From a virus: a stretch of 23,270 nt of DNA. Positions 4,244-12,032 of the stretch are shown in pieces (the first letter of the stretch is position 1; the number at the start of each line of letters is the position of its first letter). The notes beneath the pieces are model-generated. The model saw only the letters and a list, made by a program, of their open reading frames with translations. It had not been told where the DNA came from and made no database searches. Position numbers and translations under genes: made by a program. The stretch is from the IMG/VR virus record IMGVR_UViG_3300009506_000196, positions 1 through 23,270 of that record; one strand, written 5' to 3'.

Positions 4244-5637
4244 TGCCTCAGACTAATTTTCCGACCATTCATCTGACAATCAACGGCGAGGACTTTTCAG
4301 ACACTCCTCCCGAATATATCCAGGAGCTGATCTTCGAGGATTTGCAGGAGGGCGCATACTCTGTCGAAGTCTTGTTGCATGACAAAGAATTTACGCGGAT
4401 CGAAGATGCGATTCTTCGAGCCCCACAGAGCGGAAATCTCAGTGAGATCGTCGCTAGCTTTGGTTATACGATTGACGGAAAACTCTATAGCTCAGAACGT
4501 CTGCGTGTCTGTCCCTCGTACTATCTTCCTACATTCGGAGCGGGAGTCGATGCGCGACTCAGAGGTTATGCTTTTGGGGCGCAGTTCAACGTCGAATTTT
4601 CCGAGCCTTTGAACTTCGATAATGTGCCGTATCACGAAGTGGTGAAGACGTGTGCTCAAAAAATTTTGGGGGCCGATACACAAACCGATTGGATTCAGGA
4701 GACACGAGAAGGGCAGAACTATACGGGAAGTGTGGAGCCGTTCGGTAAAGTGATAAATTTTCTGAACGAGGACATCGTTCCATCCGCCGAGGACAAACAG
4801 GGAAATACGGGTTTCAAAGTAGGCTTCATCAAAAAGGGAGACGTACTCAGCTTCGGAACTCCTGAGTTCTTATTCGAGAAACGTCTGGAGGAAAAACAGG
4901 AAATTCCCACGTTTACGTGGTTGGCTGGAAAAGCGGATTCGGATGTCATCGAGTTTCGACCCGATTTCTCAGCGACTTCTCTGGGCAACTTTGCGGCACA
5001 CGGTTTGAAATGTGTGGGTTGGGACGCGATTCAGAAACGACAAGTTACGATCGCCGTCAATCCGACTTCCGCCGCATTGGAAAAGAAGACGGGTAAGTAT
5101 CTTGCCAAGGGGGCGGCAGCTGTTTCATTGGGTAAGGATGCGACAAATCAGAGTATCCAGGGAATCGGCACGGAACTACGAGAGCGCATCTTTGGAGCCA
5201 ACAGCTATGTTATCAATCCGAATACGTGGCTCTACGATTTGCTTTATGGGGAAGCCAAAACAAATGATGTTAGCGGACCCGAGTCGATTCCATATGCAGC
5301 TCGTCTATCCTTGACGCGGAACACTCTTGAAGAATTGCAGAGAGAAGCGTTCTGCCGCTGGCGACAGCTCTTCAATGTTTTACGAACTGCCACGCTAACG
5401 CTTAACGGATCGGAACGTACAGTTGATCTACGAGCCAATGATTTGGTCCGTGTGCTCATTTTGATTCCGAAGACGAATCAGGTCCATTGGTCGTCCGGAG
5501 TCTGGTGGATCAATAAGATACGACATGAGATGACATCGGACTATACGGTTACTTGCGAGCTGAAAAGGAATGCGAATGCCACAGGTATCCAACAGATTCC
5601 TGGTGGAGTCACATTCGTAGACCTGGAAGGTTTCTGA
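4243..5637 (+). CDS. Baseplate hub protein, gp27 / gpD-like
   Basis: This 464-residue protein lies between the gp53-like gene and the spike gene, joined to both by TGATG overlaps. The N-terminus (TIHLTINGEDFSDTPPEYI then DLQEGAYSVEVLLHDKE) has the strand pattern of the first domain of gp27, gpD and VgrG hubs. The C-terminus (LRANDLVRVLI then SGVWWINKIRHEMTSDYTV, CELKRNA) resembles the last hub domain, which typically ends in a K-x-x-H segment followed by paired strands and L-x-R. Hub trimers of this family join the tail tube to the spike. T4 gp27 is 391 residues, so this one is somewhat longer; a middle part at residues ~255-345 (Ala/Lys/Gly rich) may be an inserted loop. Identity of family is likely, details inferred. 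Confidence 0.72.
   Translation: MPQTNFPTIHLTINGEDFSDTPPEYIQELIFEDLQEGAYSVEVLLHDKEFTRIEDAILRAPQSGNLSEIVASFGYTIDGKLYSSERLRVCPSYYLPTFGAGVDARLRGYAFGAQFNVEFSEPLNFDNVPYHEVVKTCAQKILGADTQTDWIQETREGQNYTGSVEPFGKVINFLNEDIVPSAEDKQGNTGFKVGFIKKGDVLSFGTPEFLFEKRLEEKQEIPTFTWLAGKADSDVIEFRPDFSATSLGNFAAHGLKCVGWDAIQKRQVTIAVNPTSAALEKKTGKYLAKGAAAVSLGKDATNQSIQGIGTELRERIFGANSYVINPNTWLYDLLYGEAKTNDVSGPESIPYAARLSLTRNTLEELQREAFCRWRQLFNVLRTATLTLNGSERTVDLRANDLVRVLILIPKTNQVHWSSGVWWINKIRHEMTSDYTVTCELKRNANATGIQQIPGGVTFVDLEGF
5625..5630 (+). promoter_or_regulatory. Shine-Dalgarno sequence fixing the spike gene start
   Basis: GGAAGG lies six bases before the ATG at 5637, within the last codons of the hub gene. It supports 5637 over the upstream in-frame ATG at 5553, which would add 28 residues read from the hub gene in another frame. 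Confidence 0.7.
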
Positions 5638-7481
5638 TGGGTACGAATCAGGAAATTATCGATCAATACACGTCTGTTCGCTACGGTTTGTATCGTGGCA
5701 TTATTGAATCGACGAACGACCCGTTGAAGCTGGGTCGGGTTCAGGTTCGTATTCACGATATTCATGGGGATGAGACTCGGACTAGCCGTGAAGTTTTGCC
5801 CTGGGCCGAAGTCAATGAGATGTGGTGCGGCGGATATGATAGCGGTTCGTTCTCCCCCGGCTCTATGATTGTCGGCTCCGGTGTCTACATCGAATTTGAA
5901 AAGGGTCAGATCGATTGCCCCATTGTCATGGGAGCATATCGAGCCAGACCAGAGTTCGCTCAGGAGATGAGAACTGTTTCTGGACGCCGAACGACGGACC
6001 CCGATGAGGAGATCGATTCCAATGCCACCTGGATTCCCAGCGAAAAGCAAATCGAAACCCCAAAAGATGTCTACTTCAAAGGTGACGAAGAAGAAACCTT
6101 TGATGACACGATCCCGACGAAAACGGTCATCTTCAAATCACCGAAAGGCCACACCATCCTGGTCGAAGACAAAGACGGGGAAGAGTTCCTCCATATCATT
6201 GATAGGGCGGGTCAAGTCATTGAAATGAGCTGTGCGGTCGCATCAACTCCTGGTGAGGAAGAAGATGCGGTAGCTCCGAATGCGGCCAATGTGGAACAGC
6301 GCGGCATTCGATCTGCGCTTCGAGGAGACCAGCTCGATCCGAAGGCAATGGTTCCTGGACGTGCCAGAATCCGTTTGATTGATCTAGCGAATCAGGAGAT
6401 TACACTTGACGCGGAAGAGGGAAACGAGACGATACGTCTCCAGAATCGGAACCGGGAAGGGACCAAGTTCCAAACCATTGAGATGTCGATCAACGGTGGA
6501 GAGCCGGTCATACGGATTGAGGGTGCGAACGGTGACAAGATCGTCATCGATTCGGAGTCGCCAACACCAATTCTATTATTGGATCATTCCGGGAATGCGC
6601 TGGTTTTCGATGCGGACGCGAAACAGATTCGTGAGATTTCAAGTGGCGGCAAATCCGTGGAGATGGTCAGCAAGACCGAAGCACTCCAGGGCGATAAGCA
6701 GACGAGTGTCGGTGGCAATGAAGACCTGAATGTAACCGGCAACCGGATCGTTACGGTTGGCAACGATGATGTGCTCAGTGCCATCGGTAATTTGCAACGA
6801 TCAGTTGGTGGGGCTCTGAATACGACGATTTCATCCTTGCTTCTGGGAACTCCACCGACCCCGTTGAACTATGGCTATGATCTGCTGTTGTACGGTCCCG
6901 CATTATCTTTACCTCCTACGGGTCTGACCGATCTATTGAACTCTCATCGCATTCGAATCAATGAGGGAGACTTTGTTCGTCAGGTTACGAAGGGAAGTTG
7001 GAAGTTCCGAACGGCTGAGGGCGATTTCGATGTCGAAACGCTGCTGGGCGATCTGTTGTTCCATACGGCCCAGGGGAATGTCTCCCTGGTCGAAGATGCG
7101 GGAACGCTGAAGATCGAGGTTACTCCTCCAGGAAAATCCAAGGCAACGATTGAAGTCGATGCGAGTGGTGACATCCACCTGAATACGGGTCCGAACGATG
7201 TTCGTCTAGAACAGGCAACGGGGATCACGACGATTGAGGCAACAACGGTTGTGGTCAAATCGGATGACATCAATTTGAGTGGTCCGACTCAGACCGATTA
7301 TTGGATCGCATTTAACCAATGGGTCTCGATCTGGACAAATTGGTTTACCACCCAGTATCTAACTCATGTGCATACGAGCGCGGCTCCCGGAGTACCAACA
7401 AGTCCTCCAACTTTGGGGATTACTCCTCCAACATGGACTCCGGCTCGCAGTACTAAGATCAAAGGTAATCCTACCGGATAG
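5637..7481 (+). CDS. Baseplate spike protein, gp5 / VgrG-type OB-fold with beta-helical needle
   Basis: Start at ATG 5637 (614 residues) is preferred over an upstream in-frame ATG at 5553: it has GGAAGG six bases upstream, overlaps the hub stop as TGATG, and begins just before the conserved domain. Residues ~16-110 form the OB-fold of phage spikes (YRGIIESTNDPLKLGRVQVR, then LPWAEVN, GSMIVGSGVYIEFEKG and PIVMGAYR). Next come strand repeats typical of the triple-stranded beta-prism (for example QEITLDAEEGNETIRLQN, DLNVTGNRIVTVGND), then a Gly/Asp-rich shaft. Near the end THVHTSAAPGVPTSPP holds an H577-x-H579 pair; similar HxH motifs coordinate a metal ion at the tip of P2 gpV-type spikes. No lysozyme domain is present, unlike T4 gp5, so it probably punctures mechanically. 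Confidence 0.88.
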   Translation: MGTNQEIIDQYTSVRYGLYRGIIESTNDPLKLGRVQVRIHDIHGDETRTSREVLPWAEVNEMWCGGYDSGSFSPGSMIVGSGVYIEFEKGQIDCPIVMGAYRARPEFAQEMRTVSGRRTTDPDEEIDSNATWIPSEKQIETPKDVYFKGDEEETFDDTIPTKTVIFKSPKGHTILVEDKDGEEFLHIIDRAGQVIEMSCAVASTPGEEEDAVAPNAANVEQRGIRSALRGDQLDPKAMVPGRARIRLIDLANQEITLDAEEGNETIRLQNRNREGTKFQTIEMSINGGEPVIRIEGANGDKIVIDSESPTPILLLDHSGNALVFDADAKQIREISSGGKSVEMVSKTEALQGDKQTSVGGNEDLNVTGNRIVTVGNDDVLSAIGNLQRSVGGALNTTISSLLLGTPPTPLNYGYDLLLYGPALSLPPTGLTDLLNSHRIRINEGDFVRQVTKGSWKFRTAEGDFDVETLLGDLLFHTAQGNVSLVEDAGTLKIEVTPPGKSKATIEVDASGDIHLNTGPNDVRLEQATGITTIEATTVVVKSDDINLSGPTQTDYWIAFNQWVSIWTNWFTTQYLTHVHTSAAPGVPTSPPTLGITPPTWTPARSTKIKGNPTG

Positions 7482-7490
7482 GAGAAAACG

Positions 7491-7733
7491 ATGCCTCTCG
7501 TTCCAGCAGCATGTGCCGCAGCAATTAAAGCAACGGTCCAGACAGCGATGGGAACCTATTTCCCTCCTGATGCGAATAATCCGACTTTTTCCGCTGCGCA
7601 GCAAGAAGCTTTTGCAAATGCGGTGAGCGAGGGAATTGCCAATGGCTTGATTCCATATTTGCTTACTAACACGATTGTTGTTGGAACATGCCCGAGCGGC
7701 GGTGGTCCGCTGTCCGGTGGTCTGCTCACATAG
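7491..7733 (+). CDS. Small spike-adjacent protein, family not recognised
   Basis: This 80-residue protein has an Ala-rich N-terminus (VPAACAAAIKATVQTAM), a helix (QQEAFANAVSEGIANGL), a hydrophobic strand (IPYLLTNTIVVG) and a Gly/Ser/Pro-rich end (TCPSGGGPLSGGLLT). It follows the spike gene with the SD TAGGAG embedded in the spike stop codon and six bases before its ATG. Small proteins directly after gp5-type spikes are sometimes tip or PAAR proteins. This one lacks the PAAR motif and the histidine ligands expected of such tips, so that is not claimed. A structural or assembly role near the spike is the most that context allows. Confidence 0.7.
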   Translation: MPLVPAACAAAIKATVQTAMGTYFPPDANNPTFSAAQQEAFANAVSEGIANGLIPYLLTNTIVVGTCPSGGGPLSGGLLT

Positions 7734-7737
7734 GAGG
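7732..7737 (+). promoter_or_regulatory. Consensus Shine-Dalgarno of speD
   Basis: AGGAGG overlaps the TAG stop of the previous gene and lies seven bases before ATG 7745. This perfect site decides the speD start against an in-frame ATG at 7688 that would extend 19 codons into the upstream gene. Confidence 0.8.
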
Positions 7738-7744
7738 TCCGAGG

Positions 7745-8164
7745 ATGGAGCATTTGGGGCGTCACTGGCTCGTCGAAATGTATGGATGCCGAAATCTGAA
7801 ACGGTGTGAGACGGATGGGTTGGACGCCATGAGACAGGCAGCGGAACTTGCCGGGGCAACAATCGTTGGTTACAGCGGACACAATTTCGAGCCTGAAGGT
7901 TTCTCAGCAGTGATCCTTGTGGCGGAAAGTCACCTATCCATTCATACTTGGCCCGAGCAAGATTATGCGGCAATCGACATTTTCACCTGTGGAGAGTCTA
8001 TCCATCCGGAACCAGCCCTGGCATTTCTGCGGGGCTACCTGGGAGCCAGGGACTGTGAGTGCCAAGAGATCAGGAGGGGAAGTGCCCAAAAAACAGGCAA
8101 ATCAAATGAGAGCCTCTGTAATGAACGATCCCAGGTGGGGGCGGCTACCAGACCGGCAGTCTGA
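7745..8164 (+). CDS. speD: S-adenosylmethionine decarboxylase proenzyme (pyruvoyl-dependent)
   Basis: This 139-residue protein matches the small bacterial/archaeal AdoMet decarboxylase family. It opens LGRHWLVEMYGC, has GATIVGYSGHNF, then the family signature AESHLSIHTWPEQDYAAIDI followed by FTCG. In the family the chain self-cleaves between Glu and Ser; here that is E61-S62, with S62 becoming the pyruvoyl cofactor. H67 and C82 match the catalytic His and Cys (T. maritima H68 and C83, from memory), and W69 and E71 are also kept. The reaction makes decarboxylated AdoMet, the aminopropyl donor for spermidine. Related proteins have evolved into ornithine or arginine decarboxylases, so the substrate is not proven. 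The conserved core ends near residue 112 (CECQEIRRG); the last ~25 residues are a non-family tail that overlaps the next gene. No spermidine synthase gene is in the window. Confidence 0.93.
   Translation: MEHLGRHWLVEMYGCRNLKRCETDGLDAMRQAAELAGATIVGYSGHNFEPEGFSAVILVAESHLSIHTWPEQDYAAIDIFTCGESIHPEPALAFLRGYLGARDCECQEIRRGSAQKTGKSNESLCNERSQVGAATRPAV
8072..8077 (+). promoter_or_regulatory. Shine-Dalgarno inside speD for the next gene
   Basis: AGGAGG lies four bases before a GTG at 8082, inside the end of speD. It is the best evidence for a separately translated gene that overlaps speD. Later in-frame ATGs at 8106 and 8121 lack a comparable site. Confidence 0.5.
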
Positions 8165-8399
8165 GAAGGTCTGCTCAGCAAGGACTCTACCCCCTAATCT
8201 GCCCGATTCAGCGGCTCCCGAGGTCCGCGCCTTGGTGGAGCAGTGCTACGCCACGAATCCCCTGGTTCGGCTCCAGTCGATCATGGGCTTATCTGTAATG
8301 GTTCTAAAAGAAGCACAATCCCATATGGAAGGGAAAGTTAGGGTCGCCGGGAACTTGCTGAAGGCGATGAGCTGGAGAGAGGCGGAGCGCAATGGCTGA
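8082..8399 (+). CDS. Small protein of unknown function overlapping speD
   Basis: Read from GTG 8082 this is 105 residues; ATG 8106 or 8121 are alternative starts giving 97 or 92. The N-terminal third is basic and Pro-rich (RWGRLPDRQSEK, ARTLPPNLPDSA). The C-terminal part looks helical (EVRALVEQCYATN, SIMGLSVMVLKEAQSHMEG, LLKAMSWREAE). It overlaps the end of speD by 83 bases in another frame and the next gene by eight bases (ATGGCTGA). It fills an otherwise empty stretch from 8165 to 8391 in which no other long frame exists. No family is recognised, and nothing ties it to polyamine chemistry beyond position. Confidence 0.6.
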   Translation: MPKKQANQMRASVMNDPRWGRLPDRQSEKVCSARTLPPNLPDSAAPEVRALVEQCYATNPLVRLQSIMGLSVMVLKEAQSHMEGKVRVAGNLLKAMSWREAERNG

Positions 8400-9822
8400 A
8401 TGGAAAACCGGGGCTCTCGGGGGTATGTTCCCTGCCGATGTCCAAGATGCGATCGATGAGGCGACGACGACGGCGGCAGCGGCGAACAGCGTTTTGTCCC
8501 CGGTGCGTGACGCGCTTGATCTGGCAAAGAACTTTTTGACCAGTCTTCCAGTCCTCGATCTCCCAGCTCTGCTCGCTCAAATTATCGAGGATTTTTTGAA
8601 TGACTTTCGGGCATCGGGAATCTACTATCTTCCCGTCCTGGATCGGGGGCTGGAGGACGTTGCGAAGCTCAATCTGAATTTCAAGGAATCGGCTCGCATC
8701 TGGGAAGAGCTCAATGTTCCGAGTTACGATGGATTCGGATCGAATGACGATACCTATGCCCAGGAGCGGAATCGGAAAGCGTTTCAGGCATACTTCTTTC
8801 GTCGTTACCTAGGAGGTCCAACTGGTTCCGCGATGTCTCGTTTCAAGAGTCGGGTCGTTCAGAGCTTCAGCGATGAAACGGATGATGAGAGGCCCACGTT
8901 TACCGGAGAAGTGGCTGGAACCGTTTTCCTAGTTGGGGCTCCATCGATGGCAGAATATGTGGATGTCCTGGTGCAGATCGCAGACCTCTGGCCGAACAAT
9001 ACGGAGCTGAATCGTGGTCTGGAGCTGATGCGAAACAAGTTGACAGACGGTTTTCTCAACACGTTTAGTCATTCAGGAAATCGAATTGTCAAACGATTGG
9101 AGGGTGACAATACAACTGGCTATTCTCTCAACTTTGGTCGGGAGATTAAGCAATACAGCATTACGATTAGACAGCAATCCCAGATCGAAGGTGTAACCGG
9201 CGTTCTACGAGACTTCTTTGGTATTCCATTTGAACGGATCGCATCAGATACTCCGCTTGATGAGAACTATGGTTTGTTCGATCCGAGAAGTGGCTGGCAG
9301 ATTTCTGTAGGAGCCGATATAGATTACAAAGCAGGATCATTTTCCGGTTTGAAGTTTACGAGCGATCCTGGAAATCTTGTGGTCAGTTTCATTCCTACGG
9401 TAACAGGCGTCAATCCTCCGGATTGGACCACGATCAATCTGGATAAACTCTTCCCCTTCATCTTTGGGATCATGGACAACTACATGCTTCCCATTGTTCA
9501 GGCACTGAGGGCTGGGTCAAATGCGAAAGATGCGATGATCGCCCTGATCGATTTGCTGGATCAGAAGCTGGCCCGCTTGGACGAGTTGATTATCGAAGCA
9601 GAACGATTGGTCACGATCTTCAATGTGATTTTAGGGGCTACAGGAATTTACAGCCTCTATATTCACTCTAGTAGCGGGGTCGATGATTGGATCGATCAGT
9701 TTCAGAATGCGACGAACGAACCTCCTTTCAACGAGTTCGATGCGTTTGTTGGTGGAGTCGTGCTTATGGCGGGTGGTCCGTCATTGACTCCGTTTGAAAA
9801 CTTCTTCTCAGGGTTGGCATGA
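8392..9822 (+). CDS. Putative baseplate structural protein, family not recognised
   Basis: This 476-residue protein begins at an ATG with GGAG five bases upstream, overlapping the previous stop. The N-terminus is helical and Ala-rich (DVQDAIDEATTTAAAANSVL), then a hydrophobic helical stretch (LPVLDLPALLAQIIEDFL). The middle is mixed, and residues ~305-345 are strand-rich (GSFSGLKFTSDPGNLVVSF). The C-terminal part is a long helix (LLDQKLARLDELIIEAERL) followed by a hydrophobic segment (VTIFNVILGATGIYSLYI). Its place between the spike/speD cluster and the gp25-like gene suggests a baseplate component, but I recognise no family. The segment FTSDPGNLVVSF resembles the end of the repeated module seen in the later tail genes; it is too short to prove kinship. 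Confidence 0.8.
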   Translation: MAEWKTGALGGMFPADVQDAIDEATTTAAAANSVLSPVRDALDLAKNFLTSLPVLDLPALLAQIIEDFLNDFRASGIYYLPVLDRGLEDVAKLNLNFKESARIWEELNVPSYDGFGSNDDTYAQERNRKAFQAYFFRRYLGGPTGSAMSRFKSRVVQSFSDETDDERPTFTGEVAGTVFLVGAPSMAEYVDVLVQIADLWPNNTELNRGLELMRNKLTDGFLNTFSHSGNRIVKRLEGDNTTGYSLNFGREIKQYSITIRQQSQIEGVTGVLRDFFGIPFERIASDTPLDENYGLFDPRSGWQISVGADIDYKAGSFSGLKFTSDPGNLVVSFIPTVTGVNPPDWTTINLDKLFPFIFGIMDNYMLPIVQALRAGSNAKDAMIALIDLLDQKLARLDELIIEAERLVTIFNVILGATGIYSLYIHSSSGVDDWIDQFQNATNEPPFNEFDAFVGGVVLMAGGPSLTPFENFFSGLA

Positions 9823-9953
9823 AAAAGAGAGATAAGCGTCGTAAACGATTGGCCCGAAAGAAGAGGGCCGAGGAGAAAGCTCAGACTCATGTGGCTACGA
9901 GGATTCAAAGGACCGCTGACGTTTCTTCCGAACGGAGACCTGGAACAAGTTGA
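9819..9953 (+). CDS. Possible 44-residue highly basic peptide
   Basis: An ATG overlapping the previous stop (ATGA) opens a 44-codon frame, MKKRDKRRKRLARKKRAEEK and onward, ending TGA at 9951. More than half of the first 20 residues are Lys or Arg. It covers the 66-base gap before the gp25-like gene and then overlaps that gene by 65 bases in another frame. Its translation could serve mainly to carry ribosomes to the gp25-like start, or it could be a real nucleic-acid-binding or assembly peptide. No independent SD is clear. Confidence 0.35.
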   Translation: MKKRDKRRKRLARKKRAEEKAQTHVATRIQRTADVSSERRPGTS

Positions 9954-10296
9954 AGATGTCGATGCGTTGGCAACGGACCTGTTTCAGATACTGGATGATC
10001 GACAAAAGGAGTGGTTGTTTCAGCCGAACCACGGTTTGTCGATTATGAGCTCTGTGATGAGTCAGAAAGATTCGATCTTTGCGCTCCAACTGGAAACAGC
10101 TTTGCGACGCGAGACGTTGGACCAGGAGCCACGAGTGCGGGTCAAATCGATCACGGTTAATACGGATGCGGCGGCTGCGGCTCGGACTCAGGCGGAAGTC
10201 AACGAACTTGAACATACGGCGGTAGTACGTTTGGAGTTCCAGGTAGGGGCAACAGGCGAGAATGCTGCGGTAAACCTCCAGATTCAGAGAGGATAA
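9889..10296 (+). CDS. Baseplate wedge protein, gp25 / gpW-like
   Basis: This 135-residue protein has nearly the length of T4 gp25 (132). It carries the features of the GPW/gp25 family: an N-terminal strand pair (FLPNGDLEQVEDVDAL), a helix (TDLFQILDDRQKEWLFQPNH) where the family usually has a ...R-G-E-...P-x-x-G turn, and the conserved E80-P81-R82 motif in DQEPRVRVKSI. In T4 the EPR region of gp25 packs against gp6 and gp7 in the wedge core, and gp25 starts sheath assembly. The gp6/J-like gene follows directly, as in most contractile systems. A weak AGGAG lies 13 bases before the ATG, inside the small basic frame, so translation is probably coupled to that frame. Confidence 0.85.
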   Translation: MWLRGFKGPLTFLPNGDLEQVEDVDALATDLFQILDDRQKEWLFQPNHGLSIMSSVMSQKDSIFALQLETALRRETLDQEPRVRVKSITVNTDAAAAARTQAEVNELEHTAVVRLEFQVGATGENAAVNLQIQRG

Positions 10297-10340: not shown

Positions 10341-12032
10341 ATGGCTCTCGGACGCTCTCTTAGTTACACGGGGAAAGACTACCTTTCTCTGACCGAGGAA
10401 ATCACGAAGTACATGACGGAATTTCTTCCGGAAATTAGCGATGCGTCTCAGGCCAATCCTGGGCGACTCCTGGCGAATCTGTTCGGTGGCATCATCGATG
10501 TGCTGAATTATAGTACGGACATCAACTTCATCGAGAGTCTTTGGGGCGTCAGCCAGCAGAGCAGAAATCTCATCAATCAGGCGAAAGGAATCCCCTGGGC
10601 CTATCCTGGTCCGAGTTCGGCCAGTACCGATTTGCTATTTGTTCAAACCGGGTCGATCACACAGGTTCCTCGCTATTTGGTTTGTACGACGAATGACAAT
10701 CCCCCAAAGAAGTTTGTTACGATCGATTCGGGTCTGGTCGTCGGCAGTTCGGTAACAGTGGCAGCTGTTGAAGGTGAACGAGTCGTTGATGAAATTGTTA
10801 CGGAATCGGCCAGCGGGGATTTGAATCAAACCTATTCGCTTTCACAGACCTTGGCTCCGTACAGATTTGTTGAAGTCCAAGTAGGCGGTGTTCCTTGGAC
10901 CCGGCAGCCATTAACGTTGTTCGAGAGCACGGCGGACGATACGCATTTCATCTGCATTCCTGACTCGGAAGACCCGACAATTACGCAGATTCGATTCGGT
11001 AATAACGAATTTGGCATGGCTCCTCCGGCGGGAAGCCTAATCACGGTGAGCTATATCCGCTCTTCGGGAGGGACCGGAAATGTCCCCAGAAATTCGATTA
11101 CGAAAATTGTCGGGCCGATCAGCGGCTCTTTCACGGTCAATAATCCGGAAGGAGCTGGCGGCGGATCAGATGGACCCGATGTGGAGACGATCCGCGAGCA
11201 AGCCCCTTGGATCGCTCAGACCTTTTATCGTGCGGTCAACGAAGCCGATTATCTGGCCTATGCTGTGAGCGTCCCAGGAGTATTCGATGCAGCGATCGCA
11301 ACAATTATCGGATCGATCTACTCACTCTATATCGTGCCGGATGGTGGGGGCAGAGCTTCTCAGACCCTAATCGATGCGGTTCAAACAGGATTGGCTGAGA
11401 TCGCCATGATTGGTAGTCAAGTCAATGTGAACACGACGGAAGAAGCCGAATTGCTGATTTCGGCTCGGGTCTACACTAGAACAACTGACATCCCGCGAGC
11501 CACGGTTCGACAAAAGGTGATTGATGAAATCCTGAATGCCCTGGACTATCGCAACATTGAGATCGGCAAAGCATTTACGGTTAGTGAGCTGAGCAAGCTG
11601 ATCTTGGACATCGATAATGGGCAGTTGGTGCAAGCCGTCAACTTTACGGAGCTGACACGTCGCCCCAGAGTGGTCCAGAGCGATCCTGACGCTCCTTCGA
11701 TCCAAGGAGACGTGGAGGTCAATGCAGCTGCTGATTACGCTTCCTGGGTCGTTTCCCAGTTGACGGCAACCACCTTTGCCGTTGCCAAGAATGGGTCGGT
11801 AACGGGAAGTCCTGGGACAGTGGGAGAAGAGTATACGACGGCTGAAGGTGAGATCACTTTTACGTTGGGAACGCCGACCGATACACTTCCAGCCGCTACG
11901 ACCTGGACATTCTCCACCAGTAAGTATTCGGGAAATATCCAGATCGGGGATGGAGAAGTTCCGGTGATCTCAAATCTTGGACAGGTCCAAGTAGATGTCT
12001 TCTATCCAGGTGAAGGAAATCCGTTCGAATGA
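10341..12032 (+). CDS. Baseplate wedge protein, gp6 / gpJ-like (Baseplate_J)
   Basis: This 563-residue protein has the Baseplate_J layout. The N-terminus (SYTGKDYLSLTEEITKYM then ANPGRLLANLFGGIIDVLNY) is typical of gp6/J proteins. Residues ~265-313 hold the signature NPEGAGGGSDGPDVETIREQ followed by RAVNEADYLAYAVSVPGV. Residues ~350-450 form the C-terminal alpha/beta part with VRQKVIDEILNAL and GKAFTVSELSKLI. In the family this protein dimerises and, with gp25 and gp7/I, makes the wedge core and the ring that opens on contraction. Between residues ~455 and ~540 a strand-rich insert (AVAKNGSVTGSPGTVGEEYT and so on) lies before the usual final strands (GNIQIGDGEVPVISNLGQV). The stop overlaps the next ATG. 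Confidence 0.9.
   Translation: MALGRSLSYTGKDYLSLTEEITKYMTEFLPEISDASQANPGRLLANLFGGIIDVLNYSTDINFIESLWGVSQQSRNLINQAKGIPWAYPGPSSASTDLLFVQTGSITQVPRYLVCTTNDNPPKKFVTIDSGLVVGSSVTVAAVEGERVVDEIVTESASGDLNQTYSLSQTLAPYRFVEVQVGGVPWTRQPLTLFESTADDTHFICIPDSEDPTITQIRFGNNEFGMAPPAGSLITVSYIRSSGGTGNVPRNSITKIVGPISGSFTVNNPEGAGGGSDGPDVETIREQAPWIAQTFYRAVNEADYLAYAVSVPGVFDAAIATIIGSIYSLYIVPDGGGRASQTLIDAVQTGLAEIAMIGSQVNVNTTEEAELLISARVYTRTTDIPRATVRQKVIDEILNALDYRNIEIGKAFTVSELSKLILDIDNGQLVQAVNFTELTRRPRVVQSDPDAPSIQGDVEVNAAADYASWVVSQLTATTFAVAKNGSVTGSPGTVGEEYTTAEGEITFTLGTPTDTLPAATTWTFSTSKYSGNIQIGDGEVPVISNLGQVQVDVFYPGEGNPFE

Follow-up and report, generated by a model that had tools for sequence, protein, structure and literature searches.

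The closest described relatives of the gene analyzed here are the prokaryotic class 1b S-adenosylmethionine decarboxylases (AdoMetDC, SpeD/SpeH; TIGR03330, PF02675), such as T. maritima TM0655 (PDB 1tlu/1vr7). Class 1b enzymes are also carried by cyanophages (S-PM2 and others), in which the gene has no adjacent spermidine synthase and usually accompanies replication or photosynthesis genes (its neighbors include sliding clamp, glutaredoxin, PSII or PhoH genes), so that a location among late genes is not the rule. In E. coli lacking speD, spermidine is restored by several SpeDs of phage origin (PMC9992855). That paper and PMC10407285 also characterize shifts of substrate within the SpeD family, which makes the substrate of the enzyme studied here a fair question. 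On the structural side, Bacillus phage SP-15 and Listeria phage LIS04 (Thornevirus) share a tail gene order with our locus that runs from the tape measure protein through a tube protein, a gp53-like protein, a hub and a base_V spike to gp25 and J.

We analyzed a linear virus fragment of 23,270 bp (hereafter the window, meaning this whole stretch of DNA). The first half of its gene order comprises tail chaperone-like ORFs, a tape measure gene, and genes for a tube-like protein, a gp53-like wedge protein, a hub and a gp5/VgrG-like spike. The spike gene is followed by an 80-aa ORF, speD, a 105-aa ORF, a 476-aa ORF, gp25 and J, and J in turn by I, large fibre-like proteins, an amidase-type lysin and a holin (see the table). 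Family matches to the Phage_base_V spike and to gp25 bear out an earlier note, made from the sequence alone, that speD lies between spike and wedge genes. In SP-15 and LIS04 the corresponding interval holds one PAAR/Rhs-like gene, whereas in the window it holds speD and the three ORFs around it. Flanked on one contig by phage genes (spike, gp25, J, lysis), speD is a host-type metabolic gene that classes as a phage auxiliary metabolic gene. The window gene set supports a contractile tail, as does a related contig, L178, which has the same gene order preceded by apparent sheath and tube proteins, the sheath named by inspection.

Features of the speD locus, in coordinates of the window
Feature	Position (nt)	Strand	Basis or remark
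gp5/VgrG-like baseplate spike-hub (Phage_base_V), 614 aa	5637..7481	+	PF04717 E=1.4e-7; phrog_430 E=3.6e-19
80-aa ORF directly 3' of spike gene	7491..7733	+	no family match
Shine-Dalgarno AGGAGGT, overlapping stop codon of the upstream 80-aa ORF	7732..7738	+	sequence
speD, class 1b S-adenosylmethionine decarboxylase proenzyme, 139 aa	7745..8164	+	ATG start, family matches
speD domain, residues 1-112	7745..8080	+	C-terminal tail 113-139 low-confidence (model)
E61-S62 codons, predicted self-cleavage site (S62 to pyruvoyl cofactor)	7925..7930	+	translation; aligned to T. maritima E62-S63
H67-T68-W69-P70 codons; H67 in processing/catalysis, P70 typical of true AdoMetDC	7943..7954	+	alignment
C82 codon, catalytic cysteine	7988..7990	+	alignment
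105-aa ORF, GTG start, overlapping speD 3' end	8082..8399	+	AGGAGG 4 nt upstream, inside speD
476-aa ORF, last gene of variable interval	8392..9822	+	no relatives in a scan of viral contigs
gp25-like baseplate wedge / sheath initiator	9889..10296	+	PF04965 E=8.7e-7
Baseplate J-like wedge protein	10341..12032	+	TIGR02243 E=3.8e-23; baseplate J matches

The arrangement of these genes points to late expression. A consensus scan of the + strand from spike to gp25 found no promoter- or terminator-like site, so speD is likely co-transcribed with the tail genes. Together with its tight or overlapping neighbors on the same strand, this agrees with the proposal of the earlier note that speD is made late with virion proteins, which is probably right. 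The consensus AGGAGG site reported there is present as AGGAGGT, 6 nt before the ATG, and is the longest Shine-Dalgarno match among all genes of the window. The GTG of the 105-aa ORF falls exactly at the end of the SpeD domain, and the codon usage of this ORF is beyond the range seen elsewhere in the window. Spermidine synthase, said to be missing nearby, is indeed absent from the 23.3-kb record; because that record is a linear fragment, such a gene may sit elsewhere in the genome.

The assignment of the gene to the SpeD family is far beyond chance. Its product matches Pfam PF02675 over residues 7-112 (E=1.5e-33; 115.7 bits against a cut-off of 25 bits) and the NCBIfam equivalog TIGR03330 over residues 3-112 (117.1 bits against 75.65). 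It is also matched by AdoMetDCs of solved structure from T. maritima (E=5e-25) and Aquifex. The ORF is real and intact. The window SpeD has the length and fold of the prokaryotic class 1b enzymes and shares their E-S cleavage pair, catalytic His and Cys, and HTWPE motif, at ~43–47% identity; it differs from them in being phage-borne and encoded within a baseplate operon. Every residue listed at first sight, including the ESHLSIHTWPE motif, is present in the translation, and E61-S62, H67 and C82 align with T. maritima E62-S63, H68 and C83. Among 49 other SpeDs, 45 columns are conserved in at least 75% of the sequences, and the window SpeD agrees at 38 of these, every fully invariant column included. 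One departure is R20, at a position where 94% of other SpeDs have the usual Leu. A structural model built with 49 relatives has a mean pLDDT of 89.6, exceeds 90 across nearly the whole domain, and superimposes on T. maritima AdoMetDC 1vr7/1tlu with an rmsd of 1.3 Å (1vr7_B, TM 0.79/0.92). Only the last ~27 residues, which lie outside the family domain and whose codons overlap the next ORF, are of low confidence; the class 1b enzymes differ from the window SpeD in this tail. Catalytic residues, family score and modeled fold thus agree in predicting that the enzyme is probably active, as the earlier note had supposed. The window enzyme is a new example of an already familiar phage SpeD, and what is unusual is its genomic position.

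We compared the spike–gp25 interval across phages. With a profile of the spike N-terminus we recovered 80 viral loci, and spike and gp25 could both be placed in 59 of them; this set includes the window and some near-copies, and the 58 loci other than the window are comparable but distant. The interval ranges in length from nothing to ~5.3 kb and contains a PAAR gene in about half of the loci. Other contents were each seen in a single case. In L206 the interval encodes a protein of 272 aa (5545-6363) that matches guanylate cyclase / class III nucleotidyl cyclases weakly, below the cut-off. In two related phages the genes lie antisense: L186 (10693-11363) has a HicB-like antitoxin beside a small HicA-like protein, and L187 (3489-4026) a PIN-domain protein, also with a small partner. 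L217 has a DUF3310 protein. None of the 58 other, distant loci has speD in the interval (0/58), and the contig of the only close relative, L178, breaks off within the spike gene, before the slot. speD may be kept in the phage's own group or may be the isolated insertion that the earlier note had named as a refutation. Because the contents vary and speD occurs in none of the other loci, the interval has the look of a cargo slot and not of a site for a conserved baseplate gene, and it is probably a variable cargo slot within the tail operon. Judged by their titles, abstracts and term counts, the papers that a search on AdoMetDC, phages and baseplates brought up apparently describe no such placement of speD.

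Searches for nearer relatives returned little. An alignment search with the hub found L178 as the sole relative (spike 84%, hub 64% identical), and when viral contigs were scanned with SpeD, J, I and the 476-aa protein as single sequences, no relative appeared. Among the loci retrieved by the spike profile, no locus had a spike match and a SpeD match together, which leaves unsupported the idea that speD is a conserved member of this phage group's baseplate operon. We also considered the 109-, 118- and 416-aa proteins of L206 as homologues of the 80-, 105- and 476-aa ORFs of the window; the alignments were not significant, the sole exception being an 18-residue N-terminal resemblance.

SpeD-like matches in named phages came to 149 records, mostly from cyanophages and all below 60% identity. 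We built SpeD trees of 118 and then 93 rows, the second leaving out very long rows (pelagiphage, YS40, P2559S) whose placement had been unreliable. The window SpeD fell in a starred clade with bacterial class 1b SpeDs (100/94 in the second tree) and, in both trees, outside the clades of cyanophage and freshwater-phage SpeDs. Its branch is long (1.6–1.9 changes per column), with no close homologue. As the bacterial rows were chosen by their similarity to the window SpeD, the donor group cannot be named. The codon usage of speD approaches the lower limit seen among the phage's other genes without leaving their range, which argues against a very recent arrival; its GC3 is in range as well. A recent transfer judged by composition is unsupported. 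A SpeD from MT839461, labeled 'Bacteriophage sp.', was dropped as a phage neighbor case since it sits in a fused bacterial-type ORF. There (L002:1606-3273) the fusion partner of SpeD resembles, by eye, a branched polyamine synthase, and the contig looks bacterial and not phage.

Our preferred explanation, to which we give a probability of about 60% with bacterial ancestry counted in, is that speD encodes a functional, bacterium-derived class 1b AdoMetDC carried in the variable spike–gp25 cargo interval, made late, and boosting spermidine through the host synthase. SpeD would be translated from the late tail transcript, and the proenzyme would cleave itself at E61-S62 to form the pyruvoyl cofactor. 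By decarboxylating AdoMet it would allow host spermidine synthase to make more spermidine during particle assembly; as the fragment carries no spermidine synthase, the host must supply that enzyme. The extra spermidine may help compact DNA for packaging and support late translation. Such a role has precedent in that phage JG004 is unable to infect a P. aeruginosa speD mutant, for which its authors proposed DNA packaging (PMC3120641), and in T4, whose virions can carry polyamines and whose maturation is reduced in cells depleted of these compounds (PMC7226272). These dependences make a late AdoMetDC sensible. The sequence does not, however, distinguish between packaging, late translation and mere passenger status.

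Passenger status is the first alternative to weigh. Here speD would be a gene in a tolerated insertion spot, expressed by virtue of its position while bringing little if any benefit, or already in decay. The variable interval, the lack of speD in any other locus examined, the long branch with no close relative and the overlap of the speD 3' end with the next ORF are all consistent with this. Its catalytic residues, however, are all intact, its codon usage and GC3 are in range, and its ribosome-binding site is the best in the window; these features argue for a function maintained over some time, and we consider a mere passenger unlikely.

A second alternative concerns substrate. The gene could encode a SpeD neofunctionalized to a pyruvoyl-dependent arginine or ornithine decarboxylase (ADC or ODC), as in some pelagiphages and freshwater phages. 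PMC9992855 and PMC10407285 document such shifts among phage SpeDs and among those of bacteria, where they often accompany the absence of spermidine synthase; the window fragment lacks this synthase, and its SpeD sits on a long branch. PMC10407285 describes the proline after HTW as typical of true AdoMetDCs and not conserved in ADCs, and Fig. 8 of that paper gives four diagnostic residues (Gln, Thr, Phe, Tyr) for SpeDC, the pyruvoyl ornithine decarboxylase. In our alignment the proline lost in SpeDA, the pyruvoyl arginine decarboxylase, is kept as P70, whereas an ADC-type pelagiphage relative reads HCWDE. The proline is an imperfect marker, though, as the phiYS40 SpeD reads HYWID and is reported to be a true AdoMetDC (PMC9992855). 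The grouping of the window SpeD with bacterial class 1b SpeDs also speaks against a changed substrate, in a tree from which a characterized ODC sequence was absent. On balance, the substrate is likely AdoMet, and the ODC or ADC identity that the earlier note had raised becomes the less likely one, to the point that we regard it as improbable.

Could SpeD instead serve the baseplate as a structural or moonlighting component, or travel in the particle as cargo? Two T4 enzymes, dihydrofolate reductase and thymidylate synthase, were once reported to belong to the baseplate, and speD lies almost directly 3' of the spike gene, a position at which related phages often have the gene for a spike-associated PAAR protein. 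The protein nevertheless consists of the AdoMetDC domain and its low-confidence 27-residue tail; neither PAAR nor an adaptor nor any other domain for virion loading is fused to it. It keeps all of the enzyme residues, although a purely structural protein could do without them. Comparable baseplate operons lack speD, and what the interval encodes in other phages varies and is sometimes non-structural. A place in the particle is thus very improbable.

We likewise think it highly improbable that SpeD lowers AdoMet to blunt host methylation or restriction in the manner of phage SAM lyases. SpeD would consume AdoMet, and phages are known to use SAM-degrading enzymes in counter-defence (PMC7877911). 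But counter-restriction must act early, whereas speD in the tail operon is expected to be late, and SpeD has no match to the PADLOC library. Least credible is that the spike–gp25 interval is a loading site for particle cargo and that SpeD is delivered into the host like the spike effectors of secretion systems, in which case a ready-made polyamine enzyme would enter the host together with the phage DNA.

The preferred explanation, a late AdoMetDC, has parallels in other phages. In six large-phage contigs of 174–412 kb (L058, L080, L260, L261, L263 and L265, with L260 and L261 near-copies of each other), speD lies directly 3' of one conserved gene, which encodes a ~210-aa protein family, amid genes for very large fibre-like or appendage-like proteins. 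One protein near speD matches head-decoration and virion families in L080, and another weakly matches a tail-fibre family in L058; most neighbors have no family match, so the assignment of this block to the virion is partly inference. As in the window, the large-phage speD sits in a virion-like block and has a bacterial-type sequence. The lineage differs, however, with no common structural proteins detected and SpeDs ~43% identical to that of the window, and speD is found among fibre-like genes and not between spike and gp25. The late-module speD genes of other large phages are independent parallels to that of the window.

Late-module speD recurs elsewhere too. In L027:283-8342 it lies a few genes 3' of a T4-like block of portal, protease and major capsid genes, and the genes after it resemble restriction-modification parts; in phiYS40, speD is two genes away from the portal gene. 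By contrast, the other common contexts in phages are a primase and a glycosyltransferase (L038 type), an exonuclease (L010 type) or the replication and photosynthesis genes of cyanophages. A 192-kb contig, L267, encodes two SpeD-family proteins ~5 kb apart (6001-6378 and 11427-11789), the second, a divergent one (PF02675, 54 bits), may act as an arginine or ornithine decarboxylase. In Microcystis phage MaAM05 (L007:2971-5749), two SpeD-family genes are clustered with speE and speB; the HTWP proline is missing from the second SpeD, which suggests an arginine decarboxylase feeding agmatinase. In L026:7983-9266, SpeD forms the N-terminal domain of a phage ORF of 427 aa whose C-terminal extension is unexplained.

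The reasons proposed for phages to carry polyamine enzymes include translation, replication, photosystem maintenance and DNA packaging. A speD linked to tail genes and the speD genes of virion-like blocks in large phages point to a late role. The independent parallels make such a role of phage polyamine synthesis testable, and phages with a late-module speD offer concrete systems in which to separate packaging from early metabolic roles. The variable spike–gp25 interval, in turn, is a useful spot to seek further phage cargo genes.
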